Source: Fibrobacter sp. UWT2 | GTDB taxonomy: Bacteria; Fibrobacterota; Fibrobacteria; Fibrobacterales; Fibrobacteraceae | NCBI RefSeq assembly: GCF_900142545.1 | Contig: NZ_FRBF01000014.1 | Span: forward strand, 1-64,000 | Length of the DNA: 64,000 nucleotides | Direction: 5' to 3' | Shown: positions 6,453 through 59,260 of the stretch, one piece after another | How the letters are laid out: every line of letters starts with the position of its first letter | Numbering within the stretch: position 1 is the first letter of the stretch | Translations under genes and position numbers: made by a program | Notes under the pieces: generated by a model | What the model was told of the DNA's origin: nothing | The model's database searches: none | The model's input: only the letters and a program-made list of their open reading frames with translations

Positions 6453-6640
6453 TGCCTCCATGTGGTCGCAATTTGTGACGCCGCTTTCGCGGCTGGTTTA
6501 TGTTAGAGGCGTTCTTGCATAACCAGAAAATCAATTAACGCAAAAACGCACCTCGCCTTAAAACAGCGAGATGCGTTCAGCGGTAATGTACGTAATATCT
6601 AAAAAGTTAGCAAGGGAGGCAAGAAAATTTTACAACTCCG
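6453..6640 (-). promoter_or_regulatory. Structured 5' leader of the DUF1016 gene (leader family, copy 1)
   Basis: Minus strand, in order: a conserved GTAAAATTTTCTTGCCTCCC upstream block; -35 TTGCTA (6613-6608); 17 nt; -10 TACATT (6590-6585); a perfect-stem hairpin with 11-base arms at 6576-6566 and 6556-6546 followed by TTTTTG, which looks like an intrinsic terminator placed right at the start of the RNA; a hairpin CTGGTTATG...CATAAACCAG; a GCCGC-GAAA-GCGGC tetraloop hairpin (6493-6480); then the GGAGG site. CGCCTCTA (6511-6504) can pair with TGGAGGC of that site. The leader holds a five-codon frame MQERL. Copy 2 lies at 8095-8260 and copy 3 at 59115-59260. Confidence 0.75.
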
Positions 6641-6986
6641 CTCGCTTTTTCAGTTTTAATTTGTTTATTACCTTTGATACCTCCAGCACCACATCCGTGT
6701 ACTTAGTTTTTTTAGTGTCAAAGCAAAGCGTTTTATCAAAATCGATAAATCTAATACAGGTGCCAGTACTCCAATAATAACTCACATTTTCATATGTATT
6801 GCAAATTTCCTTAAAAAAATCTACAACCTTTTGCGCATTGTCTTTTTCTTTTTGCAACGGCGTAAAAATCCGCTCCAATTTATCGTACAATTTTTGTTCT
6901 TCTTCATTGAAGCCGCTTTCCCCATCAGCGTACATTCCCCAGTTGTACATCATTTCAACTTCTTTTTCTGTAAATGTATAGTCCAT
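6630..6986 (-). CDS. Small acidic hypothetical protein
   Basis: A 118-residue protein rich in Asp, Glu, Lys and Tyr, with no family I recognise. It starts MDYTFTEKEVEMMYNWGMY and has two likely helices followed by a mixed C-terminal part that contains FIDFDKTLCFDTKKTKYTD. GAGGA six bases before the ATG at 6986 supports this start; an in-frame ATG at 7022 would overlap the ORF6N gene and lacks such a site. It follows the ORF6N gene by 25 bp on the same strand and is probably co-transcribed. Its 3' end runs into the upstream block of leader copy 1, so the DUF1016 promoter overlaps its last codons. Confidence 0.6.
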   Translation of the reverse strand: MDYTFTEKEVEMMYNWGMYADGESGFNEEEQKLYDKLERIFTPLQKEKDNAQKVVDFFKEICNTYENVSYYWSTGTCIRFIDFDKTLCFDTKKTKYTDVVLEVSKVINKLKLKKRAEL

Positions 6987-7011
6987 TTTTTCCTCGTTGT
7001 TATAATTAAGT

Positions 7012-8091
7012 TCACTTTCCACTTCTTACTGCAGCTATTTCGGCGTTGATTTCGTTGAGTGTCATGTCGGCGGAACTAGCCTTCTCGGCGTCGGCGGAAA
7101 GTTGCTGCATGGTCCGGAACATTCGGTGTCTGTCATACAATTCCTTGAACATGTTTCGGTAGGCATCAACGTCGTCCAACTGGACGATAGTCGTAATCTT
7201 GTTGCCGGCATCCTTGCTCGAAGCTCCACAATGGAACAGCTTTTCACTTTTGGTCCTAAAGTCGACAAGAATATAGCGGTCGTGGAATTTGTGCGCCGCA
7301 GAAACCGTATCAATCGAAACGCCCGGCATTGCCGCACGAAAATCGTTGAGCATATCATCCGTTATGCGGGCATACCGATCACTCGCAATCAAAATAGATA
7401 CGCCCTTACGCGCATTCCGGAGCAAATTCAGCGTCTTGATGTCAACATAATTATCAACAACCAACAACGATTTCTTCGCCATGCCGTAAATCTGCGCATA
7501 GGCGACATCAGCTTCCAACTTCTGTCCGTTCAAAATTAAGAAGTGCTTGTATGTCGAGGGATCAACGAAGTTTTCCATGACTTTCTGAAGATCAGATTGA
7601 ATGACCGCTATATCCTTGGTATTTCTTTCAGTTTGCACGGCAATTTGGGCAATGCCGTCATAACCCAATAAATTCCGATTTTCAGCAATGATATAGTCTT
7701 TCATCTGCTTGAAAAGGCGAATAAGGGCCATACTTTGACGAATCGCAAGGTCACCTTTTAAAACCGTCATAAGCATATAGATGCCCTGTTCGGTGAAGGC
7801 ATACGGCAATTTTCGTGTTCCACCCCAACTTGATGTGCATTTTTTGCACATCAAGTTTTGCATTTCATCCTCACTCAATTGAAATCGAAAATCCTCCGCA
7901 AATCGATCAATGTTATTTTTTACCTGGCGATTGAAAAATCTCGTCTCGTATCCGTAAATCTCGGCCAAATCTGCATCGAGCATCACCTTGAGCCCGCGGA
8001 TGGTATATATCCGCGATTTGAGCAGGGTTTCGTCAATAAGCGGGAACTCCGATTTGACTGGCGCAACCGCCATATCATTCTTTTTAGCCAT
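7012..8091 (-). CDS. ORF6N-domain protein with PLD-like C-terminal part
   Basis: A 359-residue protein. Residues about 25-125 form an ORF6N DNA-binding domain (IYTIRGLKVMLDADLAEIYG, KNNIDRFAEDFRFQL, TSSWGGTRKLPYAFTEQG). The C-terminal half has QIYGMAKKSLLVVDNYVD and HKFHDRYILVDF, resembling phospholipase D-like folds seen in some prophage and abortive-infection proteins, although only one HxD-type motif is visible. GGAGG lies 4 nt before the ATG. The codons just before TSSWGG are a perfect 27-base hairpin (7829-7855). The gene has the same structured leader as the DUF1016 gene. A role in phage or plasmid control is inferred from context. Confidence 0.85.
   Translation of the reverse strand: MAKKNDMAVAPVKSEFPLIDETLLKSRIYTIRGLKVMLDADLAEIYGYETRFFNRQVKNNIDRFAEDFRFQLSEDEMQNLMCKKCTSSWGGTRKLPYAFTEQGIYMLMTVLKGDLAIRQSMALIRLFKQMKDYIIAENRNLLGYDGIAQIAVQTERNTKDIAVIQSDLQKVMENFVDPSTYKHFLILNGQKLEADVAYAQIYGMAKKSLLVVDNYVDIKTLNLLRNARKGVSILIASDRYARITDDMLNDFRAAMPGVSIDTVSAAHKFHDRYILVDFRTKSEKLFHCGASSKDAGNKITTIVQLDDVDAYRNMFKELYDRHRMFRTMQQLSADAEKASSADMTLNEINAEIAAVRSGK
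7829..7855. repeat. Palindrome inside the ORF6N gene
   Basis: Eleven-base perfect arms (CTTGATGTGCA and TGCACATCAAG) around TTTTT. In frame it encodes LMCKKCTS, directly before the conserved SWGG. A different palindrome occupies the matching codons of the ORF6N remnant at 24638-24660. Confidence 0.85.
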
Positions 8092-8094
8092 ACA

Positions 8095-8260
8095 GCCTCC
8101 ATGTAGCCGCGTTCGCGGCTGGTTGATGTTAGAGGCGTTCTTGCATAACCAGAAAGTCGATTAACGCAAAAAACGCACCTCGCCTTAAAACAGCGAGATG
8201 CGTTCAGCGGTAATGTATCTAAATATCAGAAAACTGGCAAGGGAGGCAAGAAAATTTTAC
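8095..8260 (-). promoter_or_regulatory. Structured 5' leader of the ORF6N gene (leader family, copy 2)
   Basis: Nearly identical to copy 1. Minus strand: upstream block GTAAAATTTTCTTGCCTCCC; -35 TTGCCA (8240-8235); 17 nt; -10 TACATT (8217-8212); hairpin arms at 8203-8193 and 8183-8173 with TTTTTTGCG behind them; CTGGTT...AACCAG hairpin; GCCGC-GAAC-GCGGC hairpin (8119-8106); GGAGG. The five-codon MQERL frame is present. The divergent helicase promoter begins about 85 bp away. Confidence 0.75.
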
Positions 8261-12194: not shown

Positions 12195-14405
12195 TCAGAC
12201 TTCTTTGCAAGGCAAGAAATAGTATTCGTCCAACGGCGACCTATTCCGCTCAATTCTAGCTAGATCTATGTCGCCAAATATGCTACCTTCCAAAGAGCGA
12301 TGATCAATTTCTTCGGGCAGCCGATGTTCCACTCCAATTCGAGCGTTTTCAACAGCATTGCGTCTCACGAAAAAGCCAAATTTGTCATCATCAAAGTAAT
12401 AGTCACCTTGGGCAAAAGATACGGGTTGTAAATTATTCTGTCGCGTTGGGAAAAGTTCTCTCGAAGAGACGTGGAAACAATCGCAAGCACCGCTTATTTC
12501 TCCCCACATCTTCTCTATATTTTCTAATTCAACTCTTTCTGATTGAATGTGCGTATTTTCAGGAATCTTTTCTATTGCCAGCAACAAGAATTTAGCGCCT
12601 TCCGGCCTATATATTTTTCCAATCAATAAACGGAAATAGCGGTTAACAAATTTTTGTTCCGCAGGTTCATCAGCTTCCCCGAAATCAATGTTATGAGGCC
12701 ACAAGATGTAAAACTCGTATTTTTCATCCAACAATTTTAAAAAATTTTCGCGGAACTGTTTTCGCGCTTCACGCTTGAATTCTTCCCGAAGAGATGAGTG
12801 ACTAGATGTAAATGCTTTAAGGACATACAAAAAATTCACATTGTACACTTGCAGCAGGAGCGTGTCACGATCAAATAAGCGATTTATAAAATGACGGTTA
12901 CGGTTCTTCCAAAGATGTTGTTTTATATTTTTGCGCTGATCGCCTTCGCCATCGTCAAAAGTGTCCGCATCGTCAACTTCCGCAATTAGTTTTTCATTAT
13001 CATCATTGCGAAGATACGGGTCTTGATACTGTTTTTTGTCTACAAAATTGGGCGCGAACCCCCTAATGAAAAAATTCGGAGTAACACTGTAGCCATCCGT
13101 TAAGCTATCTCGATAATGAATACCTCTATGAGCATCAGATACATGAGGAACCGTACTACGGAAAAACGCAGGGTTAAAGAAATCCTGCATTACGTTTTTA
13201 GCGTACGTAAATTGCTTCGCAATAGATTGTCCACGGATATCCTCTGGATCCTGGTAATACTTGCTGTCTCCAATATGCCAGATAAGATCGTTATTAAAAT
13301 CATTTTGGTTTGATGCAAAAATCAACGATTTTTCCTTATAGAGATGGTCTATGATTTTTCCATCGCTATTCTTCTTTAATCTCGCTGCATCCGGATCGCC
13401 CACGAGCTCGTCAATCATTGCCTCAAACACATTGTTGAACGAGTTGGCAATCAAGTATTCCTGTGCATTATTGCTCGTATTGCTATATTGGGCGCCCCAT
13501 TCAAAGAAGGCTTCCATGACATTATAGAGCTTGACAAGCCTATCTTCAAAATACTTGTACTTTATTTTCTTGAGTTCACGCAGGCCACGTTCGTTTTCCA
13601 AGAGCCGTTCCATCTCAATCATTCTGAGCGGCTGATAGAACTCGCTTTGCGGCATCTGATATCCAAACTTATCCAGGATATATTTCATTGCGGAAAAATA
13701 AAGAACCAACAGACGATCGTCTAAATCAAAAACTTTGACTTTATTTACGGGGTTCATGTAAATGGGAACTCCGTTTTGCATAAAAGGAATCGTTTTATTG
13801 ACGGTACGTTGCCAGTTTATTTTGTGGTTTCCACTATGCTTGTTCTTTGCGATAAAGACAAAAAGACTTTGATTCTTTTTATAGAACAGTTCCATACTGC
13901 TCATAACATCGAGCAATGTAGCGTAGCGGTCGCTCTTCTTAAATCGCAGGTGTTCTTTTTGCAGCGGAGTTTCAATTCCAGTATCTTTATCACCCTTCTT
14001 ATGGTACTTGTCAATGGCGGAATAGAGCCAAAGGGATAACGATGAGAAAAAGTGGCGTTGTTCAGACACAAGAGGTGCATTTTCCAGGTCGTTTTGTCCA
14101 CCCAAAACGTCTTCGCCTTTACGATTTATCCGTACGTCAAAGGCTTTTTGTACATCATATCCGTGTTCATCCTTTACGATATTTCCTCGCTCATCTTTTT
14201 CGTATTCAAGAAATACCTTGGGCAGCACAAAAACCGGCTGACCATTGTAAAAACAATAGCCAACACCATCAATTTTTACTCCTGCCTTTATTGTTTCCGT
14301 ATTAAATCCGCTTTTACTCCGACTTTTAGAATCGCCGTCACCATAACCGATGACGGTTTTCAAAAAAGTCGGATCGTAAGGAAACTCTTCAAATAGAAAA
14401 ATCAT
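12195..14405 (-). CDS. LlaJI/McrC-type restriction nuclease subunit
   Basis: A 736-residue protein resembling the LlaJI family, the nuclease partner of a McrB-type AAA+ GTPase. The N-terminus has KIDGVGYCFYNGQPVFVLPK; the middle has KHSGNHKINWQRTVNKTIPF and PIYMNPVNKVKVFDLDDRLL. The nuclease core is probably KIIDHLYKEKSLIFASNQND followed by IWHIGDSKYY (PD-(D/E)xK: the D and then DxK). It lies 27 bp after a 3' fragment of its AAA+ partner gene, so the system here appears disabled: the nuclease is whole but the motor subunit has lost its N-terminal half. Confidence 0.75.
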   Translation of the reverse strand: MIFLFEEFPYDPTFLKTVIGYGDGDSKSRSKSGFNTETIKAGVKIDGVGYCFYNGQPVFVLPKVFLEYEKDERGNIVKDEHGYDVQKAFDVRINRKGEDVLGGQNDLENAPLVSEQRHFFSSLSLWLYSAIDKYHKKGDKDTGIETPLQKEHLRFKKSDRYATLLDVMSSMELFYKKNQSLFVFIAKNKHSGNHKINWQRTVNKTIPFMQNGVPIYMNPVNKVKVFDLDDRLLVLYFSAMKYILDKFGYQMPQSEFYQPLRMIEMERLLENERGLRELKKIKYKYFEDRLVKLYNVMEAFFEWGAQYSNTSNNAQEYLIANSFNNVFEAMIDELVGDPDAARLKKNSDGKIIDHLYKEKSLIFASNQNDFNNDLIWHIGDSKYYQDPEDIRGQSIAKQFTYAKNVMQDFFNPAFFRSTVPHVSDAHRGIHYRDSLTDGYSVTPNFFIRGFAPNFVDKKQYQDPYLRNDDNEKLIAEVDDADTFDDGEGDQRKNIKQHLWKNRNRHFINRLFDRDTLLLQVYNVNFLYVLKAFTSSHSSLREEFKREARKQFRENFLKLLDEKYEFYILWPHNIDFGEADEPAEQKFVNRYFRLLIGKIYRPEGAKFLLLAIEKIPENTHIQSERVELENIEKMWGEISGACDCFHVSSRELFPTRQNNLQPVSFAQGDYYFDDDKFGFFVRRNAVENARIGVEHRLPEEIDHRSLEGSIFGDIDLARIERNRSPLDEYYFLPCKEV

Positions 14406-14432
14406 GCAACAAGCCTATCGCAGCATTTTCTA

Positions 14433-15014
14433 TTATGCAGGATTCGGATCTTCTGCGGGAGCTGCATTCTGATCAACGACCCCTAAATTAGACATAATTG
14501 TTGCTATACGCGTTCTCTGGGTTTCATCGTCCCCTTCAAAAAGCGTTTGGAATGTCAACGTCTTATCATCTTCACCTTCTAGCCTGAAATGGAACACCTT
14601 TTCCGCGGCGTCATTTCCTTCTTCGTCTTTATACACGGAATCCCAAAGATAGAACAGGACTTTGGAGCGGAATTCTTTATAATCAACGGAATGCTTTATG
14701 AAGAATTCTCCCATCTGCTTGTCTTCACTTCTAGTCACTTTGTAGACATTCGCATTTACAGCTTTCAAGAAGTCAAGCCACTTATACTTCTTCCCACCAA
14801 CCTCTATGTCAAAACCAGCATTAAGATGAGCGTAGTCTATCGGCACATATTCCCAATCAAAACGACGTTTGAAAGCACTGTCCATAGGGAACAATGACTG
14901 GTCACTTGTATTCATTGTGGCAAAAATACTTAGATTTTCACAAACGGCGAAGCTGACAAAATAAAGAACAGCACCATCACTTATCTCGTAGATCATCAGG
15001 TATTCCCGTCGCAT
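14433..15014 (-). pseudogene. 3' fragment of a McrB-like AAA+ GTPase gene
   Basis: The 193 codons give only the C-terminal half of a McrB-type protein: NLSIFATMNTSDQSLFPMDS is the sensor-1 region, followed by AFKRRFDWEYVPI (arginine finger region). The Walker A and B motifs and the N-terminal DNA-binding domain are missing. The open frame stops being McrB-like close to 15,000, exactly where a differently oriented truncated helicase gene begins. The ATG at 15014 is therefore probably accidental. Acidic C-terminal tail, then 27 bp to the nuclease subunit gene. Confidence 0.8.
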
Positions 15015-15017
15015 GGA

Positions 15018-17090
15018 TTGCCCATTGGAGTTGTAACACTAGATGTCATGAAAAAGAACAACAGTGGCTACTACACCCCAGTAGAGGATTTTGATCTTGC
15101 TCGCGAGCGCAAAGCAGCAATTAGAAGTTTTGCTCCCGGCAATGAAATCATTGTCAAGGGCTGCCGTTTCCGCTCTCTAGGCATCCGCGTGAACTACCGG
15201 CAACGTTTCGGCGTACACATAGAAGGTTCCGATGTGGTAAAAAAGGTGTTCAAGTGCCCAAATTGCGGAACAGTCTATCCTAACGCAGTGTTAGGAGACA
15301 CATGTAAAAATTGCATTTCCATAGATACAGGGAACAACTTTGAACTTATTGCGCAGAACACCGTTGAGCCAGAAGCGTTCCTTTCCAACATCGCCACAAA
15401 GAAAAAAGGCGTTCGCAACCCGGTTCATATGCCATACAAGGTAAAAACCCAGGTTGACGGCACCATTGAGGAAACAAAGAAATCGGAATTCGCTTCAATG
15501 GATTATTTAGACGCCAGTAAAGTGCACACATTTAATGCCGGCCTTGGAGACGAAGGGTTCATCTATTGTTCTTCATGCTACGCCGTTTACCCAAAACAAA
15601 GGGGTAATGATTTATACAATGCAAGAATGAGATTTCCGGCACCGGCAAGAGATACATGCGCCCATTCCATGGTCAATGACCCGTTCTATCTCTATAGCCA
15701 ATTTTCGACAAATTCTCTATTTATAAAAATAGCTCCCGAATACAGAATAAGCAACGTCTTTACCGATCAGGTAAAAAACACTCTAGGCGTGGCATTAAAA
15801 TCAGCCATCGTCCAAGAGCTGGATATGGAAGAAAAAGAAATTGATTTCTGCTTACCCTCGCCCATGCAGGACTGCGACTTAATTCTTTTTGACACCAATG
15901 TTGGTGGAGCAGGATATATTAAGCGTATTGCGGATAATTTTGACCGAGTTTTTGCAGCAGCAGTCCAAAACGTTTTGCTAGGCAGTCCTGAACATCAAAA
16001 GAATTGTTCCGGAGCATGTTCTTGCTGCTTGGTTAGCTACAGTTCTCAATTCCTTTTCCAGAACGCAGAATCTGCACCAAATAGAATCGAGACCTTAAAG
16101 GCTCTTGAAGTCGATAAAATTGTAGAGAACGAGAAGTTCCTCAAATTCAAGGATTCCACCGCCAAACTTGGCTACAAAATCACAAACCGCGACAATGTAC
16201 AAAATCAAATAGCCAACCAGAACAACACTGTGGCTATATGCCTGGACACCCTTACGCTAGCATTCTTTGAAACAGAAATATGGCGGACGCTTAAAGAGCG
16301 CACCACAGGAGTCGAGTTCCTATTAACTCGGGTTCCAAACGAAGCTTCTATAGCAAATATAAAACGACTAATTGGTCTGTTCGGCGAAGACTGCATCAAA
16401 ACTGTTGAAACAGATGCTCGCTGCGGCATTTATATAAATAACGATACAATGTTCGGGCTTCTCGATTGGGATGCTCAAAATTTCCATCAAGTATACGATG
16501 ATGGAACAAATCAGGCAACATGGATTGAAGCAAGAAACGAAACTATCATACCGAAAAACGAATGGAAATTACCTGAAGCCAAAATTATGAGCAATTCGGG
16601 AGAAACAACAGAAATCATTGAAGACTACAAACTAGATCGGTTGGTCAATAAAGTTCTATCTAAATTTGTAGATATAAACAATTTCCCGCTGGACCTTTCC
16701 ACAGCTGTATCTTGGTCTTATGAGGACAGCTACGCCTTGAATAAAGATTGCGGCAAGCATTATAACGACTTTAAAAAAGAAGTTATAACAGCGATATTGA
16801 AATTCTTCAAGGCCCAGGATTTACTGAAAGATCGAGCAAGGGGAAGAATTGTATACTCTATGGAGTTTGATCCTCCAAAAATTTCTTTAGCCGATATTGC
16901 AGCAGAACAAAAAGGATTGCCACAAGCCGAGGCAAAAATAGTACTCCATGATAGGGCTTTCAGAATTAAATACCAAGACGGTTCTGTATTGTCCATATCA
17001 TTCGGAAAGGGTCTTTCCACATTTGACTACGACAATAGGAAATTTGTGAAGTATCCGGGACAACTCTCTTGGTACATAAATAAACCATAA
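15018..17090 (+). pseudogene. 5'-truncated DUF1998 helicase-type gene
   Basis: The 690 codons match the C-terminal part of large DEAD/DEAH helicases that end in DUF1998, such as those of Druantia- or DISARM-type systems. Seen: RKAAIRSFAPGNEIIVKG, a zinc knuckle CPNCGTVYPNAVLGDTCKNC, a second Cys cluster with CAHSM, then DUF1998 proper (ILFDTNVGGAGYIKRIADNF, CSGACSCCLVSYSSQF). No Walker motifs or helicase core are present. The reading frame stays helicase-like slightly upstream of the TTG at 15018 (FPSHGLPIGVVTLDV), then hits the McrB fragment. It could still be translated as a DUF1998-only protein, like DrmB, so loss of function is not certain. Confidence 0.75.
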
Positions 17091-17100
17091 GGAGTTTCTA

Positions 17101-19857
17101 ATGAGTTTCTTTAATTCTGAACAATCCTTTGAAGACATATTTTACAGTTATCTAAACAATGTCTCTGTTAAAGGTGAACTCTTTAGTTATGATGACGAAT
17201 TCCTAGAAGACGATGATTATTATACGCTTTTCAAAAAAATCGTTTCTGAAACACAACGATTTGGAAAATATAGTGAATTGAGAGGTTGCCACAACAGCCC
17301 TACATTCTTAAAATCTTTTCATAGATGTTTTGGAATATATTTACGAGAAGCAACCCTCCGTTACGCAACTTCTTTTAGCGAAGAAGGGTTATGGAGACCT
17401 TTGAATGAAGGTATAGAAAAAGATTTTTCACGCATCGGACTCAATCCTAATTTTTGGGGCAAAGGAAGTCGAAATCCCAGAACAGTACTAACCGGGGGCG
17501 TTGATTATGCCAATGGGCACAGCCTTTTCTATGCCATTTTCAATTCGTTCCGTTCAGAACACATTAGATATCGAAAAAAAGAGGAAAACGAATACACAAA
17601 ACATTTGCTGAAATTAGCAGTTCTACCACACAAATACAATCCCGTCGCAAATTACTTTGACGATGTCTTGCTGGCGTATAGATCAAACGCTATCGACCGA
17701 TACCTAGAAGAGCAAAATCGACAGGGTTTAGATATTCATCCAAAAACGAGAGAGCGATTAGCGGCTAAAATCCGAAATTTCTTCATCTTTGTAGATGATG
17801 CAAAACAAGATGGCATTGAACTTAGCGACATTCAAAATAGCATTTATACCAATTTTGGAGGCTGGCTGCAAAAAGCATATCATAATCAACAACAAGTTAG
17901 CAAGTCCCTGGCTGCAGAAAACAGCGAGTACGTCAGGGAATCAAGCCAGGTCAAATATCGTCTAATTCTCGGAACTCAAAATATTTTCCAATACCATATT
18001 CCAAAAATTCTAAGTTTGAAAAGTCTGTTTCCCGACATTCAGAATCTAAGAAATACATCCAGAATTGAAATAAGTGATGACGAGGATTATCTCTTTACCA
18101 TAGACAATAATTATGTGGATATTGACGAGGACATTTCAAACAAGAATAGAATCATCAACCAATTAATTGGCAAATCCAGTATTACTGTTGAATACAAAGA
18201 CACCAAATTCAATGTTCCTAACCCATGGTATATGGGAAATCGGTGGCATATACTAAACGAAGAAGGCGAAAAAACGGATGTATGGAATTGCGAAAAAAAC
18301 ATCTACCTAGTCATTCCTAGTTCCGATTCAATATCCACTTGCGAGATGAAATCGGACAACAACACATTGTCTACAAATTATTCTTTAGATGCAATGACAT
18401 CTGAAAAATCAGGAATGAACGTTTATAAGATTGAGAAAAATAATAATGCCGTAAACTTCGACAAGCTCTGCATTACCACTCAAAATGGCCTCCGCATTAT
18501 TATTGAAATTGAAAACCCATCTTATGTCCACCTATGCCACAAATTTGATGGTCGTCCACAATTTATCGCACAAAAAAACAAGCACAAAATCGCAATCGGC
18601 CGCATAGAATTCAGTCATCTTGACGAATTGGATACAAACCCAATGGAAGATGAATACAAAAAAGATTACTGCGTTGAAGTAAAAAAAGAATATGGCCGAT
18701 TAATAATAACGAATAAAAGCACAAGTGTTATTGAACTACCTGAAAAAAATTTCGGCAGAACAATCATCCCTGCCGTAACCCTACTCCCTGAAGGGACCGA
18801 CGTATGGATTGCACATGCAGAGGACCAAAATTCATTCCGCGGCTATCTGCAAGGAACAATTGACAACCTGTCACATGATTGGAATGACTCAAATATCGGT
18901 CTTTTGAAACAAAGTCTCGCCGTCAATATTGAACAAGGGCATGACTCTATTTGTTCAATACGTTTTGCTGAAAACGGAGAATCATTCAATTTGATTTCCC
19001 CATATTTAAAGGCAAACCTAAATATGCCTCTAGGTAAAACGCTCTATTCAAGAGATATCGCCCGCAACAACAATCCCTTTGACGGTTTTATACCTAGCGA
19101 GGCCTCATATTATTTTAAATGGACTGAATGTGAACGTGTACTTGAAGCGACAATTCCGCTATACTATAAAATTTCTGTGTACCATTGCTACGAAAAGCTA
19201 GGAATAAATGGTGCAGAATGTACCTTCGGATGGGCATACGAGGGGACCCGTTTCTGTTATTCGTTTAAACAAAATCCCGATTACACTGGTTGCGTCTCAC
19301 GCCCAGAAAACTTTTATGATTATTCCAAGGAGGAGCTGAAAGCGTATTTTGGAAAGCTTCTTGGCATAGTAAAAGAAATAACTGATACATACTACATACC
19401 ACGACCTGGAAAAAAAACAAATCGTAATCCTTTGGAAATTGTGGAAGTAGAACCGACAAAATTAGGTGATTGTGTTTATTACCTATACAAAGCCTGGGAG
19501 GGATTCTACAAAGAAAGACTTCCTCAAGATGCCTTTGTTGAACTTGAAGAATATGTAAAAGAAGTTGCTAGAGTTTTCTTAAATGTTGACGTTGAACACG
19601 TTGCACCTATGGAAATTGAACTAACCGAACACATCCGAGATACCATTGCAAAACTTCCCGACCCCGATTATTTCAAAGAATGCGAAAGAGAAAAAAGAAA
19701 AGAATATTTGCAAATGTATAATTACACTCACAATCCGCATTTCCAACGAGCGCTAAAATTAAAGCCAACAAAATTTAAAGAAATAATATGGCTTTTAAAC
19801 AAAGATGATTTGAAAAAGGCTATTAGCAATCTATACGATGTAGAAATCAGAAAATAA
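17101..19857 (+). CDS. Large uncharacterised partner of the DUF1998 protein
   Basis: A 918-residue protein that I cannot assign. The N-terminal 250 residues are helical and contain GRNPRTVLTGGVDYANGHS-like sequence near residue 140. The middle (about 290-620) is rich in beta strands. The C-terminal 200 residues are charged and helical, ending NKDDLKKAISNLYDVEIRK. AAGGAG lies 5 nt before the ATG and only 10 bp separate it from the DUF1998 gene, so the two form one operon. By position it could be the companion of a Druantia- or DISARM-like helicase. It has low GC content, like its neighbours, and no membrane segment. Confidence 0.7.
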   Translation: MSFFNSEQSFEDIFYSYLNNVSVKGELFSYDDEFLEDDDYYTLFKKIVSETQRFGKYSELRGCHNSPTFLKSFHRCFGIYLREATLRYATSFSEEGLWRPLNEGIEKDFSRIGLNPNFWGKGSRNPRTVLTGGVDYANGHSLFYAIFNSFRSEHIRYRKKEENEYTKHLLKLAVLPHKYNPVANYFDDVLLAYRSNAIDRYLEEQNRQGLDIHPKTRERLAAKIRNFFIFVDDAKQDGIELSDIQNSIYTNFGGWLQKAYHNQQQVSKSLAAENSEYVRESSQVKYRLILGTQNIFQYHIPKILSLKSLFPDIQNLRNTSRIEISDDEDYLFTIDNNYVDIDEDISNKNRIINQLIGKSSITVEYKDTKFNVPNPWYMGNRWHILNEEGEKTDVWNCEKNIYLVIPSSDSISTCEMKSDNNTLSTNYSLDAMTSEKSGMNVYKIEKNNNAVNFDKLCITTQNGLRIIIEIENPSYVHLCHKFDGRPQFIAQKNKHKIAIGRIEFSHLDELDTNPMEDEYKKDYCVEVKKEYGRLIITNKSTSVIELPEKNFGRTIIPAVTLLPEGTDVWIAHAEDQNSFRGYLQGTIDNLSHDWNDSNIGLLKQSLAVNIEQGHDSICSIRFAENGESFNLISPYLKANLNMPLGKTLYSRDIARNNNPFDGFIPSEASYYFKWTECERVLEATIPLYYKISVYHCYEKLGINGAECTFGWAYEGTRFCYSFKQNPDYTGCVSRPENFYDYSKEELKAYFGKLLGIVKEITDTYYIPRPGKKTNRNPLEIVEVEPTKLGDCVYYLYKAWEGFYKERLPQDAFVELEEYVKEVARVFLNVDVEHVAPMEIELTEHIRDTIAKLPDPDYFKECEREKRKEYLQMYNYTHNPHFQRALKLKPTKFKEIIWLLNKDDLKKAISNLYDVEIRK

Positions 19858-20559: not shown

Positions 20560-20738
20560 CTGCGTCTCCTTTTTTAGGGTGATTGTACCGTAATATCGCT
20601 TTTTGTCAGTTCAATGTAAAGAGAAAAATCTTTTTACAACGAAAATGGTCTCCACTAGCCCGAAAAAAGCGTGTATATATAAAGATAGGGACAGTCTCTA
20701 TTCGCCCAACGGGGGCGTTCCCGCTTTATGGAAAAAAA

Positions 20739-21899
20739 ATGACCCCAAGAATAGTAAGGTCGCACGATGTTCATGTTGATTCTGATTACTCCAAGTGGAT
20801 TGCCGAGCTTAAGCAACGGTATCGCTCGGCGCAAGTGAAGGCTGCCGTCAGGGTAAACACCGAAAAATTGCAGTTTAACTGGTCGCTAGGGCAAGATTTG
20901 GTCCACAAAAAGGCAGAAGAACGCTGGGGCGCGGGTGTCGTGGAGCAACTCAGCCTTGATTTGCGACGAGAATTCCCCGATACGGACGGATTTTCCGTGT
21001 CAAATCTTTGGTATATGAAGAAATGGTACTGTTTCTACACGCAAAAAGGTAATTCGACCAACTTTAATCAAGCTAATGACGAAAAACTCCAACGGCCCGT
21101 TGGAGAATTAGCCATGGGTAAATTCATGCGGTTTGAAAGTGTTCTGCCAACCATATTTACTAGTGTCCCTTGGGGGCAACATATAGATATTATAACCAAA
21201 TGTCGCAGTGTAGAGGAAGCTCTTTTCTACATAAAGCAGGTAGTCGAAAAAGGGTTAAGTCGCCCAGCCCTTCAAAACTGCATCAAGGCTGATCTTTACA
21301 GTCACCAAGGCAAGATTGTCAATAATTTTTCCGAAAATCTTCCCGAATTGCAAAGCAAATTGGTTCAAGAGGTGCTGAAAGAAAACTACGATTTCGGCTT
21401 TGCAACCGTAAGTCACGAGATTTATGACGAGGCAGAATTAGAAAATGCCCTGACGCAGAACGTCACTGAACTTTTGCTCGAAATGGGAACAGGTTTTGCT
21501 TTTATAGCGCGACAGAAAGAAATTATCGTAGGCAATCACAGTCGCAAGCTCGACCTGCTTTTTTACCATATCCGCTTGCGTTGCTTTGTCGTTTGCGAAT
21601 TGAAGGTAGTGCCATTCGAACCAGAATTCATCGGCAAGCTGAATTTCTACGTGAACGCGGTGGACAACTTGATGAAAGCCCCCGAAGACAACCCGACTAT
21701 CGGGCTGCTGATTTGCTCCAACATGGATTCGACCGATGTAAGGTGGTCTTTCCGAGGACTAGGTACGCCAATGGGAGTCGCCACATACAACAACATCCGC
21801 ATCAAGGATATGCTGCCCTCGAAGGAATTACTGATTGAACGCATGCATCAGGCACAAAAGGAGGTGCGCGCCACAAAGCGGATGATTCGAAAAAAATAG
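20739..21899 (+). CDS. Second DUF1016 (YhcG-type) nuclease
   Basis: A 386-residue relative of the gene at 5319-6449. The N-terminal part has SDYSKWIAELKQRYRSAQ and ERWGAGVVEQLSLDLRREFP; SVPWGQHIDIITKCRSVEEA opens the second half. The C-terminal nuclease has RKLDLLFYHIRLRCFVVCELK (D, then ExK). The linker just before SVPWGQ includes LQRPVGELAMG, encoded by a perfect 19-base palindrome (21087-21105). The ATG at 20739 is chosen as the first that gives a normal DUF1016 N-terminus; the upstream open frame reads as leader sequence. The leader contains the hairpin GCCCAACGGGGGC just before the gene, but not the shared leader family. Confidence 0.85.
   Translation: MTPRIVRSHDVHVDSDYSKWIAELKQRYRSAQVKAAVRVNTEKLQFNWSLGQDLVHKKAEERWGAGVVEQLSLDLRREFPDTDGFSVSNLWYMKKWYCFYTQKGNSTNFNQANDEKLQRPVGELAMGKFMRFESVLPTIFTSVPWGQHIDIITKCRSVEEALFYIKQVVEKGLSRPALQNCIKADLYSHQGKIVNNFSENLPELQSKLVQEVLKENYDFGFATVSHEIYDEAELENALTQNVTELLLEMGTGFAFIARQKEIIVGNHSRKLDLLFYHIRLRCFVVCELKVVPFEPEFIGKLNFYVNAVDNLMKAPEDNPTIGLLICSNMDSTDVRWSFRGLGTPMGVATYNNIRIKDMLPSKELLIERMHQAQKEVRATKRMIRKK
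21087..21105. repeat. Palindrome in the linker of the second DUF1016 gene
   Basis: CTCCAACGG-C-CCGTTGGAG, perfect nine-base arms. It is in frame and sits at the same inter-domain position as the NRPPMA inserts of the first DUF1016 gene, but its sequence is unrelated to theirs. Confidence 0.8.
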
Positions 21900-46163: not shown

Positions 46164-46727
46164 TCACCCTCTACATAATTTGCGCACATCAAAGACAAGC
46201 CCCTCACTAAACGGATCACCGCCATTTGCTGCGATGAATTTCGCATGAGGGATATCCGTCCTGTATGTCCACGGAATAGAATCGCCATCATCCGTGAACG
46301 CGTCTTTAGCATGCCATAAAGCAGAAATGTTATTCTTCTTTCCGGCGCCACGCTCCAATTTCCATTTTCCCTTTATACGTTTTAAGTGGAATTTTCCGCC
46401 TTCGAAACAATCACCTTCAGCAAAAATAGCACCTTCTAATTCAATCACATCGTCCGAATAACCCGTGACAACCACTAGCCCGTTTCGTTTCGCGCAAGCA
46501 GTTTCAACATCCGACAAGCCTTCGGAAAAATCGCGCATGCTAAGAATTTTGGCAAACTGTTCCGCAGAAAATGTTCGAGTTTTCATCCATAAAACATAAT
46601 CCACGATTCGCTTGTCTTTCTTACCGAAGTAGCCCATTGTCTTTTCTGCAATAACATTTAAGTCATCGCAAACGCTGGATACACCTTCTAAAAAAAGATG
46701 TATCTCGTTGATTTTGTTGTTAATCAT
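46164..46727 (-). CDS. Hypothetical protein coupled to the AlbA_2 gene
   Basis: A 187-residue protein of unknown family. The N-terminal part is helical (INEIHLFLEGVSSVCDDLNV); the C-terminal half has strands and Trp/His-rich sequence (NNISALWHAKDAFTDDGDS). Its ATG overlaps the stop codon of the upstream AlbA_2 gene (ATGA) and uses AAGGAG inside that gene, so the two proteins are made together and probably work together. It is convergent with the PL14-like gene, with only 3 bp between the two stops. Confidence 0.7.
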   Translation of the reverse strand: MINNKINEIHLFLEGVSSVCDDLNVIAEKTMGYFGKKDKRIVDYVLWMKTRTFSAEQFAKILSMRDFSEGLSDVETACAKRNGLVVVTGYSDDVIELEGAIFAEGDCFEGGKFHLKRIKGKWKLERGAGKKNNISALWHAKDAFTDDGDSIPWTYRTDIPHAKFIAANGGDPFSEGLVFDVRKLCRG

Positions 46728-48265: not shown

Positions 48266-48360
48266 CGTATTCTCCATTGCGAGATTACACGGCAAACGCG
48301 CAAACACGCCGAAAGAACGGCGCACCTTGCACAGTTATGTTTTTATTATGGGGATGATCT

Positions 48361-53666: not shown

Positions 53667-53668
53667 AG

Positions 53669-54418
53669 TTATTTCTTCTTCAATGCACAAATTTGCTTAA
53701 CAATATTCTTTACAATCTCAATATCGGTATCTTCGTTGAACCGAAACGCGTATTGCGCAGAAGGCCATTGTCTATTAGATATGTCATATACAAGCCCAGA
53801 CTCGTCTTTGATAGAGCCCAATTTAACACTCAAAACAACTTCAATCCAGCCACTTTTTGGCCAAAGACAAACGATATTGCAGTGTTTTCCTTCGCCCTTT
53901 TTAAATGCAACATACCTTTGCAAAGGTTTCGCCTTAATTGCATTATCAAGAGAAATAATCGCTTTACTTATTTTATTGTATAACTGAGCAATCTCTGTTT
54001 TTGGCGGAAACAAAGATTCAACAGAATATTCTTCATCGATGAGTTCAGGTTTATCAGGTTCATTTACACCATAAAACTTTAGTTTATCACTTCTGCCATG
54101 CATTTGGGCTATAGCAGAAAGCATATCATAGGCGTCCCAAGGGTCTATTTCAAAAAATTCCCTGTTTGAAGAAATCCTTAACCTGGGATTAAGCAACTGA
54201 ATGAGATTATGAACTAACTTATCAGGATCTTTTGCGCCATTTATTCTTGGAATCTCGTAGGTGCAATACACCTTATAAGGAAGAGGAACAGATGTGCCGG
54301 AAAGGTCTTTGACTCGTTTGTCGACATCCTCAGCGTATCCAATCTTTATCCAGTTTGCCTTGTGGAAACTTTCATTGGTAAGGACATAAATAAAGCCCGT
54401 TTTTTCTTTCTGTTCCAT
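53669..54418 (-). CDS. GIY-YIG (T5orf172-like) nuclease-type protein
   Basis: A 249-residue protein. N-terminal GIY-YIG domain: TGFIYVLTNESFHKANWIKI, GYAEDVDKRVKDLS, with the motif in the FIYVLTN...KIGYA form seen in the T5orf172/Mug113 branch. NREFFEIDPWDAYDML follows. The C-terminal 100 residues are a separate alpha/beta part with KGEGKHCNIVCLWPKSGWIE (DUF5655-like in flavour, unsure). It lies 19 bp after hsdR and 2 bp before the first DUF262 gene, so all four belong to one operon. Confidence 0.82.
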   Translation of the reverse strand: MEQKEKTGFIYVLTNESFHKANWIKIGYAEDVDKRVKDLSGTSVPLPYKVYCTYEIPRINGAKDPDKLVHNLIQLLNPRLRISSNREFFEIDPWDAYDMLSAIAQMHGRSDKLKFYGVNEPDKPELIDEEYSVESLFPPKTEIAQLYNKISKAIISLDNAIKAKPLQRYVAFKKGEGKHCNIVCLWPKSGWIEVVLSVKLGSIKDESGLVYDISNRQWPSAQYAFRFNEDTDIEIVKNIVKQICALKKK

Positions 54419-54437: not shown

Positions 54438-57400
54438 TTACAAATTCTTCTTAAAATTCTCAGCCTGTTCAAATATCTCCCCATAGACTTCGTCGCGTTC
54501 TACGGGCGGGTAGCCGAATTCATCGAGAAGGATTATCAGGTCCACTTTCAGTGCGGATTTAATGTCGTCGCGCTTGTCCCAATCGGGGTATGCGGCTTGT
54601 TCGTCAACGAGAATCTTGACGCGTTTTGAAAGAGCAATTAGTTTGTCTTCGGGATAGGTGAAGTGGTACTTGACGCAGAGCGATTTTAGAATGTCATAGA
54701 ACGCGGTTTCTTCGAAGCTGAGGCCTTTTTCTTCGCCTTCGGTAAACGCCTTGCGGACTTGGACAATCATGTCGGTCAAGGTTTCGGCCATTTCTTCATA
54801 GACTTCGCTTTTCAAGATGTCTTGTTCGGTGCGGTCGTTGTATTGTTCCACGAGCTGTTGCATTTTCTGCGTGAAGTTGACGCCCTTGACTTTGTTCACC
54901 TTGCGGATTTGCCCGATGGCTTTTTGCAGGAGCATTTGCAGCAACTTGATTTTCGTGTTCGGCAGCTTGATGCGGTTGATGTGCTGCAGGTATTCGTCGT
55001 CAAAGATGTTCTGCTTTGCCTGGTCGGCATCGGCATCGCTCAACTGCAGAACGTCTTCCACGCCTTCGCTCTGGAGTGCCGAGGCAATCATCTCGCGGAC
55101 GCGGGCGTTCATCTGCGCGGTATCGGGCGCATTGCCCTTGGTGAGTTTATGCAAAATGGAGCGAATTGCGAAGTAGAAATGCGCACGGTCGCGCTCGGCC
55201 TGCGTAATTCCCTCGTTGCCGACGCAAATGTCGTATGCGGCCTTCAGGCGTTTCGCGAGGCCCATAAAGCGGGCTTCCTTTTCCTTCGTGGTCTGCACGA
55301 ATTCCTGCGCTTGCTTGAGGCATTCCAGTTTCTTCAGTTCCGCTCCGTCGCCTGTGCTATTGAAATACGTCGACGCATCGAACTTGTACATCAGTTTGTC
55401 AAGCAAATCCAGATGATTGCGGAATTCCGTAATCGCAGCGGTAATGTCTTCCACGTTCTGCTCGGAACCGGCTCCGTACTGCTTTAACGCCAGGTTCATC
55501 TTGCGCTTGATGCCGATGTAATCAACGACAATTCCCTTGTCCTTGCCCGCAAACGTCCTGTTCACGCGGGAAATCGTCTGAATCAGGGAATGCTGCTGTA
55601 TCGGCTTGTCGATGTAAATGGCATCGAGGCACGGAACGTCAAAACCCGTGAGCCACATATCCACGACAATCGCAATCTTGAAGTTGGAGCGTTCCTGTTT
55701 GAAAAGACGGTCCAGTTCCTTGCGGGCGTCCTTGTCGCCGAGCAAGTCGTAAAGTTCCTTTTCGTCGTCCTTGCTGCGGGTCATGACCATCTTGATTTTT
55801 TCAACCGGCTTCAGTTCCCGCTTTTCCTTGTCGGTAAGTTCGGTCGCCTCGCCCGCAAATTCCGCATCGTTGCAGATTTTCGCCACGCCCCATTCCGGGC
55901 GCAGTTCCAAAATATTCTTATACAATGCATACGCAATCTTGCGATTATAACAAACGAACATCGACTTGCCGCGAACGGTCGATTTTTCCTGAACGCGGGC
56001 TTCGTAATGCGCCACGAAATCCTTCGCCACAGCCTTCAACCGGTCGGGGTCGCCGAGAATCACGCCCATCTGGGCCACATCCTGCTTGCTCTGGTCAATC
56101 TGGTATTCGTTGGCACCCGATTCTGCAGCTTCTTCGTAATACTTCTCAATCTCTTCGAGAACAGAATTGTTCAACACCACCTTGGCGGCACGACCCTCGT
56201 AAACGATGGGCACCGTAATGCCGTCCTTTACCGATTCCGTCATAGTGTAAATATCGACCTCGGGGCCGAACACATCGAGCGTCGCATCAATCGGCGTGCC
56301 CGTAAAGCCCACATAAGTCGCATTGGGCAAGGAATTGTGCAAGTAACGCGCAAAACCGAAACTCGTCTTGACGCTCTTATCGGTCACGGTAATTTTCTGG
56401 TCCAGGTTCGTCTGCGTGCGGTGCGCTTCGTCCGAAATGCAGACAACATTATCGCGGTCGGTCAGCAGTTCGATATCTTCGCTGAACTTCTGGATGGTCG
56501 TGAGGAACACACCGCCACTCTTGCGGCCCTGCAACTTTTCACGCAGGTCGGCACGGCTCTCCACGCTTTCAACACGCTCATCACCGATATACTTCTTGGA
56601 CGCCGTAAACAATCCCGAAAGCTGATCATCCAAATCGGTGCGGTCGGTAATCAGCACAATCGTCGGCGTCTTGAAGTCCAACGACTTCATGAGCAACCGC
56701 GTCAAGAAGAGCATCGTAAAGCTCTTGCCGCAACCCGTCGCACCAAAATACGTGCCGCCCCTGCCGTCGCCATGCGGCTTGCGAGCCTTGCAAATGTTTT
56801 CGTACAAAGACCGCGCCGCGTAATATTGCGGATAACGGCACAGAACCTTCTGCTCTTTCTTGCTGCTGTCCGGGAAATACTGGAAGTTCTTGAAAATGTC
56901 CAACAGGCGTTTGCGATTGAACATTCCCTGAATCATGGAGTAAAGGCTCTCGATGCCCTCGGCCTCGATTCGCCTGTCGCCAAATTCCACGCGTCGCCAC
57001 GCATAAAAATAATCGTACTTGGCAAAGAAACTGCCCGCCCTGTTGTTCACGCCATCGCTAATCACGCAGAAGGCGTTATAGACAAACAACTGCGGAATAT
57101 CACGGCGGTAACGCACCGTCAACTGTTCGTAGGCGTTGAAAACCGTCGCCTCTTCGCGCACGGCACTCTTGAACTCGAACACCACAAGCGGGAGCCCGTT
57201 CACAAAAAGGATTGCGTCGGGAATACGCTTTTCGGAACCGACAATTTCAAACTGGTTTACTATCTTGACGATATTGCAGTCGGCGCAGTATTTCGCCGCC
57301 ACATCGGCCGCCAGCGGCATCGCCTCTTCATCGGCATCGACACCGAAACCCGACTTTCTCTGTTCACCCAGCGGCCTAAAATCTGCAAGCTCAATGAGAA

Positions 57401-57704
57401 TGTCCTTATCCTTCGGGTTCTCGCGTTTGAGCATAAAACCGTCCGAAAGCCAGAAACAGAACTTCTTGTTGCTCTCATAGAGCGCACTCGCCGAAAGCGA
57501 ACGCAACTGCAAGACGATCGAGCGGATTTCGTTCTCGGTAATGCCCTCGGAATCGTAACGATGGTGCAAGTAGTCGCGCAGGTCCTGCTCAATCAAGACC
57601 TCGCCCTCGCCGCGGACAATCGCCTCGCCGGGCACGTACTTGCACCCCTCCTGAACCAAGAGGTCAATAAACACTTTCTCTAAGTCGGCTTCCTTGAACG
57701 CCAT
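54438..57704 (-). CDS. hsdR: Type I restriction enzyme R subunit, without M and S partners
   Basis: A 1088-residue HsdR. The nuclease core is IPDAILFVNGLPLVVFEFKS (D...ExK) near residue 165. The motor has Walker A YFGATGCGKSFTMLFLTRLL, then LITDRTDLDDQLSG, DEAHRTQ, VGFTGTPID, and the SF2 motifs IVVDMWLTGFDVPCLDAIYI and QTISRVNRTF. The C-terminal helical domain normally docks on HsdM. No hsdM or hsdS lies on either side within the window: the next gene upstream is an AlbA_2 protein. It could depend on distant M/S subunits or belong to a hybrid system with the GIY-YIG and DUF262 proteins. No ribosome site precedes its ATG. Confidence 0.93.
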   Translation of the reverse strand: MAFKEADLEKVFIDLLVQEGCKYVPGEAIVRGEGEVLIEQDLRDYLHHRYDSEGITENEIRSIVLQLRSLSASALYESNKKFCFWLSDGFMLKRENPKDKDILIELADFRPLGEQRKSGFGVDADEEAMPLAADVAAKYCADCNIVKIVNQFEIVGSEKRIPDAILFVNGLPLVVFEFKSAVREEATVFNAYEQLTVRYRRDIPQLFVYNAFCVISDGVNNRAGSFFAKYDYFYAWRRVEFGDRRIEAEGIESLYSMIQGMFNRKRLLDIFKNFQYFPDSSKKEQKVLCRYPQYYAARSLYENICKARKPHGDGRGGTYFGATGCGKSFTMLFLTRLLMKSLDFKTPTIVLITDRTDLDDQLSGLFTASKKYIGDERVESVESRADLREKLQGRKSGGVFLTTIQKFSEDIELLTDRDNVVCISDEAHRTQTNLDQKITVTDKSVKTSFGFARYLHNSLPNATYVGFTGTPIDATLDVFGPEVDIYTMTESVKDGITVPIVYEGRAAKVVLNNSVLEEIEKYYEEAAESGANEYQIDQSKQDVAQMGVILGDPDRLKAVAKDFVAHYEARVQEKSTVRGKSMFVCYNRKIAYALYKNILELRPEWGVAKICNDAEFAGEATELTDKEKRELKPVEKIKMVMTRSKDDEKELYDLLGDKDARKELDRLFKQERSNFKIAIVVDMWLTGFDVPCLDAIYIDKPIQQHSLIQTISRVNRTFAGKDKGIVVDYIGIKRKMNLALKQYGAGSEQNVEDITAAITEFRNHLDLLDKLMYKFDASTYFNSTGDGAELKKLECLKQAQEFVQTTKEKEARFMGLAKRLKAAYDICVGNEGITQAERDRAHFYFAIRSILHKLTKGNAPDTAQMNARVREMIASALQSEGVEDVLQLSDADADQAKQNIFDDEYLQHINRIKLPNTKIKLLQMLLQKAIGQIRKVNKVKGVNFTQKMQQLVEQYNDRTEQDILKSEVYEEMAETLTDMIVQVRKAFTEGEEKGLSFEETAFYDILKSLCVKYHFTYPEDKLIALSKRVKILVDEQAAYPDWDKRDDIKSALKVDLIILLDEFGYPPVERDEVYGEIFEQAENFKKNL

Positions 57705-57790: not shown

Positions 57791-59113
57791 TTATTTCAAG
57801 ATTTGCCACCGTCCATTTTTTCGAGCTCCTACGCGGGCAATACACGATTTTTCCCGTAGAGCTTTCAAAGTCCTATTAATCGTCGGTTCGGAATAACCCG
57901 TTTCATGCATAAGTAAGGGAACTGTAATGGAAGGATTCCGCTTTATTTCTGCGTAAATCAGCGATTCCGTTTCCGTAAGTTTTATCCTATCGTTTATCCT
58001 ATCATTTATCCTATCATTTATCCTATCACCCAACCGCCGCAATCCTTCAAAATAGAACGAAGTCCGCATGAAATGATCCGTAAACGAGAACGCCTTTTCA
58101 TCATAGGAACGCAGAATACGCCGCATGCCGCTCCCGAGCTGTTCGACCATATCCAAGTCATGGAAAATACGCATAAGTTCGCGATTGCGCGGCATAGAAC
58201 AGCAGTTGAAGAAATCTTCTTTTGAAAGGCCTTCCACCAACCCGCCGTAGTTTGTTATTTCCATCCTGTCAGAAAAAATCTCAAACAGGGGCGGGACCTC
58301 TTTCGTGTAATCATTGTGAACGACAGCGTTGATTACCGCCTCGCGCAAGGCAACCGGGTCGACCAGCGGCTTTTCGATACGTTCCATAGGTGTAATTTGA
58401 GCATGCGTAATGTTCGCCACCTGCAATCGCATGAGCACTGATTTTACAGCCTTAATAACGCTACAATAGCCGAATTCCTCATTTTCAATAAGGTCATATT
58501 TGTCCGTGCCTTTGTACCGCGCCACCTTTATGGATACTCCGTTTTCATCAGCAAGGAGATAAGCATTGTAATTGTATTTTCCGTCGGGAGTAAGCAACTC
58601 CAGCGTCTTGGCAAACTGACTGTTCAAGGGCTTTTTGCTCTCTTCGTAGTAGATTTTTAACTGACTAAATGTCAAGTCTTGCCGCGGAGCCGGAATCTTG
58701 GCAAGAGAAATCTTTGCGCGAGAAGCAAAAGTTTCTAGGATTATCTTTTCGCTCATTCCATGGACTGAACTTCCCACACGCACAAAGCAACCTTCGGGCG
58801 TCATACCCGCCTTTTTTAGATAATACGGTTTTTCCGGGCCACCCGAAATCGCCACATGAACGATATTTTTGTTGTCTTTTTCCTCCGTCACGACTTCAAA
58901 GAGTCCGATAGCATTCGGCTTGATATTGTTCAAGATCCTATCCGCTACTTGACGCTGCACATGGTCTATGTCCTTTACTCCATATACAGAGCCATCGTCA
59001 TTGACTCCAATATAGATGTGTCCGCCTGTAGAATTCAGAAAAGCAATTACAGATCGCTCAAAAGTTTCGGACAGTTCTCGCTTGTATTCAACAAGATGAT
59101 TTTCGCTGTTCAT
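57791..59113 (-). CDS. AlbA_2/Schlafen-like protein with a tandem-repeat linker
   Basis: A 440-residue protein. The AlbA_2 domain is at the N-terminus (VEYKRELSETFERSVIAFLN, STGGHIYIGVNDDGSVYG, CFVRVGSSVHGMSE). HATPase-like residues follow (ALREAVINAVVHNDYT, MEITNYGGLVEGLSKEDFFN, EQLGSGMRRILRSYD). A linker with DRINDRINDRINDRIK joins a winged helix (ITVPLLMHETGYSEPTINRT). GGAGG lies 4 nt before the ATG and can pair with an upstream CGCCTC. It carries leader copy 3. It lies upstream of hsdR on the same strand, with 86 bp between them. Confidence 0.87.
   Translation of the reverse strand: MNSENHLVEYKRELSETFERSVIAFLNSTGGHIYIGVNDDGSVYGVKDIDHVQRQVADRILNNIKPNAIGLFEVVTEEKDNKNIVHVAISGGPEKPYYLKKAGMTPEGCFVRVGSSVHGMSEKIILETFASRAKISLAKIPAPRQDLTFSQLKIYYEESKKPLNSQFAKTLELLTPDGKYNYNAYLLADENGVSIKVARYKGTDKYDLIENEEFGYCSVIKAVKSVLMRLQVANITHAQITPMERIEKPLVDPVALREAVINAVVHNDYTKEVPPLFEIFSDRMEITNYGGLVEGLSKEDFFNCCSMPRNRELMRIFHDLDMVEQLGSGMRRILRSYDEKAFSFTDHFMRTSFYFEGLRRLGDRINDRINDRINDRIKLTETESLIYAEIKRNPSITVPLLMHETGYSEPTINRTLKALREKSCIARVGARKNGRWQILK
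57981..58028. repeat. 12-bp tandem repeat in the AlbA_2 gene
   Basis: Four units of ATCCTATC(A/G)TTT-type sequence in frame, encoding (DRIN)n. Gain or loss of a 12-bp unit would change linker length by four residues without a frameshift. Confidence 0.88.
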
Positions 59114-59114
59114 T

Positions 59115-59260
59115 GCGCCTCCATTGGGTAGTTGAGGCGTCCCTTTATTCCGGAAACCCAGAATAAAAAAAGACGCGGTTCTCCATTTGACAGAGAACCA
59201 CGTGCAGCTTTAATGTACCTAATATCTAAAAGGCTGGCAAGGGACCTAAGGAAATTTTAC
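59115..59260 (-). promoter_or_regulatory. Structured 5' leader of the AlbA_2 gene (leader family, copy 3)
   Basis: Minus strand: upstream block TTGTAAAATTTCCTTAGGTCCC; -35 TTGCCA (59240-59235); 17 nt; -10 TACATT (59217-59212); hairpin with arms ACGTGGTTCTC (59203-59193) and GAGAACCGCGT (59183-59173) around a nine-base loop, then CTTTTTTTA; CGCCTC (59139-59134), which can pair with GAGGCG of the ribosome site (59120-59115). Promoter, spacing, loop length and U tract match copies 1 and 2, but the stem sequence is different and fully compensated. Confidence 0.75.

Follow-up and report, generated by a model that had tools for sequence, protein, structure and literature searches.

A leader RNA family with predicted competing folds upstream of defence and toxin-antitoxin genes in Fibrobacter

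The DUF1016/YhcG, ORF6N and Schlafen AlbA_2 genes of the analysed window, by which we mean the whole 64,000-nt stretch of Fibrobacter sp. UWT2, are each preceded by a copy of one leader. On balance we favour a reading of this leader as a cis-acting attenuator RNA (~105-150 nt), predicted to hold its gene off by default at the levels of both transcription and translation, which defence and toxin-antitoxin cassettes carry as a module. The leader elements follow one another in the order promoter, hairpin H1 at the predicted RNA 5' end, U tract, hairpin H2, CGCCUC and Shine-Dalgarno sequence (SD).

Leader copies in the window and in the Fibrobacteraceae

The three copies lie on the minus strand (6633-6450, 8260-8092 and 59260-59114), at the sites where a sequence-only reading of the window had placed them, and each runs directly into its gene. 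Copies 1 and 2, described there as near-identical, share 92% identity over ~154 nt, and copy 3 matches them over the promoter block. The proposed TTGCYA-17-TACATT promoter occurs with zero mismatches in every copy and the conserved upstream block GTAAAATTTY is exact in all three (Table 1). The same reading had postulated a perfect terminator-like hairpin within about 45 nt of the predicted RNA start; the hairpin is there, although H1 is only nearly perfect, as it contains G-U wobbles. The capacity of CGCCTC to pair with the SD GGAGGC was confirmed in each copy, as were the gene families (DUF1016_N with YhcG_C, ORF6N and SLFN_AlbA_2). The start of the DUF1016 gene was moved from 6461 to the ATG at 6449 because its SD occupies 6454-6459. 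The three leader RNAs fold far more stably than their dinucleotide shuffles, with z-scores of -4.6, -4.7 and -5.1. Copy 3 heads a same-strand run of five genes encoding AlbA_2, HsdR, T5orf172 and two GmrSD-type proteins.

Table 1. Features of the three leader copies and of the genes behind them in the window
Feature	Positions	Strand	Basis or remark
Copy 1 upstream promoter block GTAAAATTTT (within TGTAAAATTTYNTTNNNNCYCTTGCYA)	6624..6633	-	conserved from -44 (143 loci); 3 genome sites only
Copy 1 promoter TTGCTA-17-TACATT	6585..6613	-	
Copy 1 H1, terminator-like hairpin from predicted RNA 5' end (~6578)	6544..6578	-	
Copy 1 U tract and H2	6513..6545	-	
Copy 1 CGCCTC, partner of SD or of H1 3' arm	6506..6511	-	
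Copy 1 SD GGAGGC	6454..6459	-	sequence
Copy 1 gene: DUF1016/YhcG PDDEXK nuclease, 376 aa	5319..6449	-	
Copy 2 upstream promoter block GTAAAATTTT	8251..8260	-	
Copy 2 promoter TTGCCA-17-TACATT	8212..8240	-	
Copy 2 H1	8171..8205	-	
Copy 2 U tract and H2	8139..8172	-	
Copy 2 CGCCTC	8132..8137	-	sequence
Copy 2 SD GGAGGC	8095..8100	-	sequence
Copy 2 gene: ORF6N-domain protein, 359 aa	7012..8091	-	
Second gene after copy 2, ~118-130 aa, no Pfam match	6630..7022	-	adjoins copy 1 promoter block
Copy 3 upstream promoter block GTAAAATTTC	59251..59260	-	
Copy 3 promoter TTGCCA-17-TACATT	59212..59240	-	
Copy 3 H1	59173..59203	-	other sequence class, same structure
Copy 3 U tract and H2	59141..59172	-	
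Copy 3 CGCCTC	59134..59139	-	sequence
Copy 3 SD GGAGGC	59117..59122	-	sequence
Copy 3 gene: Schlafen AlbA_2/HATPase_c_4 protein	57791..59113	-	
Same-strand gene after copy 3: type I restriction HsdR	54438..57704	-	
Further same-strand gene past HsdR: T5orf172	53669-54418	-	
Further same-strand genes, GmrSD-type, two	52398-53690, 50507-52405	-	

For a 24-mer found upstream in both copy 1 and copy 2, the number of occurrences expected by chance in the window is 0, and a search of the 3.49-Mb genome with the extended block (27-bp pattern, up to three mismatches) returned no sites beyond the three; with only three sites in the genome, a generic promoter block was rejected. The CCCTTGCCA/TTGACA-17-TATATT part alone resembles ordinary promoters ahead of tRNA and other genes. 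Across 143 loci conservation has a sharp onset at position -44, counted from the -10 hexamer, and continues through to the predicted start, following the pattern TTGTAAAATTTTCTT....CCCTTGCCA....TTAGGTACATTA, and in each copy the promoter is conserved from -58 to +1. The TAA of GTAAAATTTT closes a long reading frame in copy 1; the idea that an upstream gene ends inside the block was rejected, the count at the 143 loci being 20 versus 19 in another frame.

The sequence-only reading would have been contradicted had related genomes held no further copies; it passed this check, as relatives hold many. A blastn search of 61 genomes with copy 2 as query gave convincing E-values in 28 of the 37 genomes of the genus Fibrobacter, and only two matches outside it, both at chance level (E ~0.003). 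A covariance model built from 17 copies detected the leader in 66 of 80 Fibrobacter-genus genomes, including 38 of the 40 high-quality ones, with up to 9 copies per genome. Within a phylum sample of 151 genomes, its occurrence beyond the genus was limited to two sister genera of the same family. The exact promoter pattern, searched in one genome per species over 84,980 species, was found at 30 places, all 30 named Fibrobacter or Fibrobacteraceae. It had no match in viral contigs, and a phage origin was rejected on that result. Rfam contained no gathering-level match for the leader, the best weak match (E 0.24) being on the opposite strand, and literature searches returned no description of it.

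Throughout the family H1 has 11-14 pairs, a short loop and a U tract behind it, and in nearly all copies it begins no more than 1-2 nt from the predicted start. The U tract is at the same time the 5' strand of H2. Past H2 comes a strand, in most cases CGCCUC, with complementarity to the SD, which lies a few nucleotides ahead of the start codon. At least four sequence classes of H1 follow this common design; the U tract of class 3 is short (UUUU), which makes a poor terminator.

Conserved pairing and the predicted second state

Among 103 distinct sequences, standard pairs fill 96.7% of the H1 and H2 cells, and the covariation score is 0.559 versus 0.289 in shuffled controls and at most 0.175 in slid ones; two-sided changes occur in 16 of the 23 pairs. 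The alignment was fitted to the H1 and H2 structure, and all these figures thus lean towards it. The SD and its complementary strand also covary, with CGTCTC/GGAGAC and GGCGTTCC/AGGAGGCC found beside CGCCTC/GGAGGC, so that the complementarity is conserved through compensatory change, and the predicted cost of opening the SD averages 6.7 kcal/mol in the intact state of 132 leaders. A GC-containing hairpin followed by a U tract stands between promoter and gene, as expected of a terminator, the U tract being weak in class 3. The pairs made by the U tract are U-G (163), U-A (113) and C-G (19), whereas the pair just below it shows C-G 46 times, U-A 39 times and U-G 15 times. Since U is kept even opposite G, unlike in the pair below, this bias suggests that the U residues are needed as such, as in a terminator. 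The stability of H1, about -15 to -25 kcal/mol, means that it cannot open unaided.

A further pairing was absent from the sequence-only reading. The 3' arm of H1 and the U tract are also complementary to the 3' side of H2 and the anti-SD strand, and this alternative pairing is predicted to undo H1, and with it the terminator hairpin, and to free the SD. Three lines of evidence, namely covariation, class-matched complementarity and folding, support a two-state design, as modelled here. First, the long alternative hairpin is 95.3% paired, with a covariation score of 0.521 versus 0.278 when shuffled. Positions 41 to 45 form standard pairs with both rival partners in 101, 101, 100, 98 and 82 of 103 sequences, and their alternative pairs, except that of 45, lay outside the structure used for the alignment fit. 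Position 44 changes together with both partners, from A-U-A to G-C-G. Most of the bases unique to the alternative pairing (41-43) hardly vary and carry little information; the informative evidence comes from positions 44 and 45 and from the comparison of classes. Second, the mean duplex energy of the alternative helix is -15.8, -12.4 and -15.6 kcal/mol for cognate arms and partners of classes 1, 2 and 3 (class 3 being represented by 4 distinct members only), whereas combinations across classes weaken to as little as -8.3 kcal/mol, the cognate ones being ~1.4 to 7.3 kcal/mol better. Third, over the 132 leaders, deleting the 5' arm of H1 lowers the predicted SD opening cost to 3.2 kcal/mol, whereas deleting the entire hairpin leaves it at 6.6; with the freed 3' arm shuffled it is 4.6. 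As the cost falls without the 5' arm and not without the whole of H1, it is the freed 3' arm, and not loss of the hairpin, that accounts for the predicted release. In the window the predicted release is modest for copies 1 and 2 (6.9 to 5.8 and 7.9 to 5.5) and clear for copy 3 (6.5 to 2.0).

Sequence and computation show the leader family and its promoter, both hairpins and the two rival pairings, that with the SD and the alternative one; from these we infer the start site, termination and switching as follows. Transcription would start at or beside the first base of H1, which would form at once and, together with the U tract, should terminate many transcripts after ~45 nt. In read-through transcripts H2 would fold over the U tract, and the CGCCUC past H2 would pair with the SD and block translation. 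Were the 5' arm of H1 engaged or lost, its 3' arm would join H2 in one long hairpin that would remove the terminator and free the SD together. In cells, the leader would then switch on when a trigger keeps the 5' arm from its partner. H1 and the alternative helix use the same bases in their first five pairs, and exchange at this junction could therefore also give graded control.

A leader of this kind might also do its work without switching, as a static damper and insulator that holds costly genes low and blocks read-through from neighbouring promoters, so that a gene behaves alike wherever it has landed. This would fit the presence of the units in unrelated upstream contexts, the 13 tandem pairs of leaders, 0.9-5.8 kb apart and all on the same strand, and the fact that no effector was found. 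It needs no pairing between the H1 3' arm and the anti-SD strand, yet that pairing is class-matched, and the SD opening cost drops on freeing the 3' arm, not on deleting H1. We regard a purely static role as unlikely.

Exchange of leaders and comparison with known systems

Leader classes mix freely with gene families, and where a genome has multiple copies, these mostly belong to several classes. Close gene pairs usually have unrelated upstream DNA and match from the promoter block onwards, with a boundary at -43 to -46. On the right-hand side homology of the compared gene pairs ends near stop codons, where no common motif was noticed. The clearest case of exchange involves two loci from different genera, L110 and L242, which are ~97% identical over ~200 nt of upstream flank and 96% identical over the first 180 nt of the gene, with only 61% identity over H1-H2 and different leader classes. 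Because the flanks are near-identical and the class differs, the module has been replaced in place.

These observations are what one would expect of a mobile promoter that recombination copies between genes, in which case the likeness of the leaders would reflect descent and not co-regulation. Putative mobile promoters, also discussed as regulatory switching, represent exchange of noncoding DNA. Like them, the leader puts one promoter module before non-homologous genes and is replaced in place with its flanks kept; unlike them, it brings along a structured RNA with two predicted states, and the genes behind it belong mainly to defence and toxin-antitoxin systems. As the leader is exchanged as a module, its sharing could partly reflect promoter copying and not one signal. 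The conserved competing pairings are left unexplained by copying without a common signal, which we consider quite improbable as the whole account. The mobility itself is compatible with attenuation, and both can hold together.

Two further proposals concern H1. 5'-terminal stem-loops are known to protect mRNA from decay, and the onset of H1 at the extreme 5' end of nearly all predicted transcripts would suit a hairpin that mainly acts as such a stabiliser; conservation of the U tract, H2, the SD pairing and the alternative pairing would then have no explanation, and we think this role very unlikely. It is scarcely credible that the 45-nt H1 RNA acts in trans as a small RNA on other copies, even though termination would release it and genomes often hold several copies of the same class, as the majority of genomes combine different classes, and the arms of one class do not complement those of another.

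As an attenuator, the leader resembles the terminator/anti-terminator platforms of riboswitches and protein-controlled leaders in having mutually exclusive hairpins after the promoter, one of them a U-tract terminator. It differs from them in three respects: i) it has no aptamer, leader peptide or known effector, ii) one strand serves as both anti-terminator and anti-SD, and both levels are therefore predicted to switch together, and iii) it stands on many unrelated genes. It shares with SD-sequestering translational leaders an upstream strand that pairs with the SD, whereas here the sequestering strand is shared with an arm of a promoter-proximal terminator-like hairpin. Integron gene cassettes likewise form same-strand tandem arrays of accessory genes, unlike the leader units in that each of the latter has its own promoter and leader; at the loci inspected, neither an attC-like site nor an integrase was noticed nearby. 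The leader also resembles Rfam families as a structured cis-regulatory RNA.

Several specific regulators and origins were examined. Reading of the aligned leaders revealed no shared start codon or reading frame of a leader peptide. CsrA-like ANGGA motifs occur in the loop and SD of many copies, and CsrA control was rejected with PF02599 absent from 21 genomes of the genus and control genomes positive. The LexA box is TGCNCN4GTGCA, and none of 164 loci comes within one mismatch of it, which led to rejection of a LexA/SOS promoter. Foldback inhibition as in some transposons was discarded, given that the predicted start spans the whole H1 5' arm and that native transcripts would fold H1 too. Frequent G-U pairs in H1 and H2 and the directional SD complementarity point to RNA and speak against a DNA-level (attC-like) hairpin.

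Genes behind the leaders and elements inserted near them

The claim that a single control module, with a terminator-like hairpin close to the RNA 5' end and a masked SD, is common to unrelated accessory genes holds across the ~160 copies inspected, which mostly precede defence or toxin-antitoxin genes. The first genes of 150 scanned loci comprise 43 DUF1016/YhcG, 33 AlbA_2, ~25 DinD/Bro-N and 8 ORF6N members, and the remainder includes HigA, RelB, BrnA and HI1420-type antitoxins and small proteins without assignment; type II antitoxins are thus among the leader-linked genes. In PADLOC the DUF1016 family is entered as PDC-S02, a candidate defence system. Leader-bearing genomes also contain many YhcG and AlbA_2 genes that have no leader, and comparison of gene and leader positions shows this for about three quarters of the YhcG genes in the genus, which therefore do not need it.

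It is an open question how bacteria silence the many costly defence and toxin-antitoxin genes that they acquire horizontally and still keep them ready for use. If the attenuator reading is true, a single RNA module on dozens of unrelated genes genus-wide, with one strand exchange giving control at two levels, would be an economical answer. A broader and decidedly tentative proposal is that one lineage-wide RNA switch licenses a horizontally exchanged defence arsenal: genes gaining the leader would join a regulon held off by termination and SD masking, and would be jointly switched on by one infection- or stress-linked event at the 5' arm or RNA polymerase. The leader family would offer a regulon that can be put to the test in a rumen bacterium amenable to culture, and whose new members can be predicted from sequence alone.

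The window itself looks like a defence island. Its second YhcG (20583-21899, plus strand) and AlbA_2 (46724-48325, minus strand) genes carry no leader and offer built-in comparisons, and the neighbouring genes at 12195-19857 encode, among others, an LlaJI-type restriction endonuclease and a protein in which an MrfA Zn-binding domain is present. The AlbA_2 gene behind copy 3 contains an in-frame 12-bp tandem repeat (TTTATCCTATCA) at 57981-58028; homology of other leader-linked genes also stops in short repeats, e.g. GATAGGATAAAT or CCCAATCCCA.

Elements of several kinds are inserted in the leaders. At 16 loci a MITE-like palindromic element (TTGCGCAAGCGCCAAATGCTAGGCTC...CGCCTTACGCATTTGTGCCA) separates the GTAAAATTTT block from the -10 region, and the -35 becomes TGTGCCA; it lies upstream of the -35 at L098, L101, L114, L130, L150, L153, L163, L165, L192, L220, L224, L226, L236 and L244. 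A second hairpin element of ~75 nt (CCTCGGCAATGAAAATAAGC...CGCTGCTCTCGG) directly follows H1 and has another GTGCGTTTT behind it, as would result from insertion with target duplication (L230, L233, L236, L237, L093 at ~2069-2236, L018 and L026). In L195 and L223 a perfect hairpin (GAGGTCAAAATTTTTGACC...) is inserted in the H2 loop and the H2 stem is intact. At L139, L140, L162, L227, L228, L232 and L249 a copy of the leader end (ACATGGAGGC or ACGCAGGAGGCCCT-ATG) stands ahead of the second gene, an arrangement that would arise if a new gene had entered at the ribosome site, between the leader and the old gene.

The first genes of L105, L118, L119, L239 and L242 are shorter than their homologues (e.g. 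167 of ~341 aa), suggesting that leader-gene cassettes may frequently decay. Between the leader of L131 and the tandem leader of L165 lies a 321-aa ORF starting METWVGIDISKDTFDAAW, which, judged by its start, looks like a putative IS110-type transposase.
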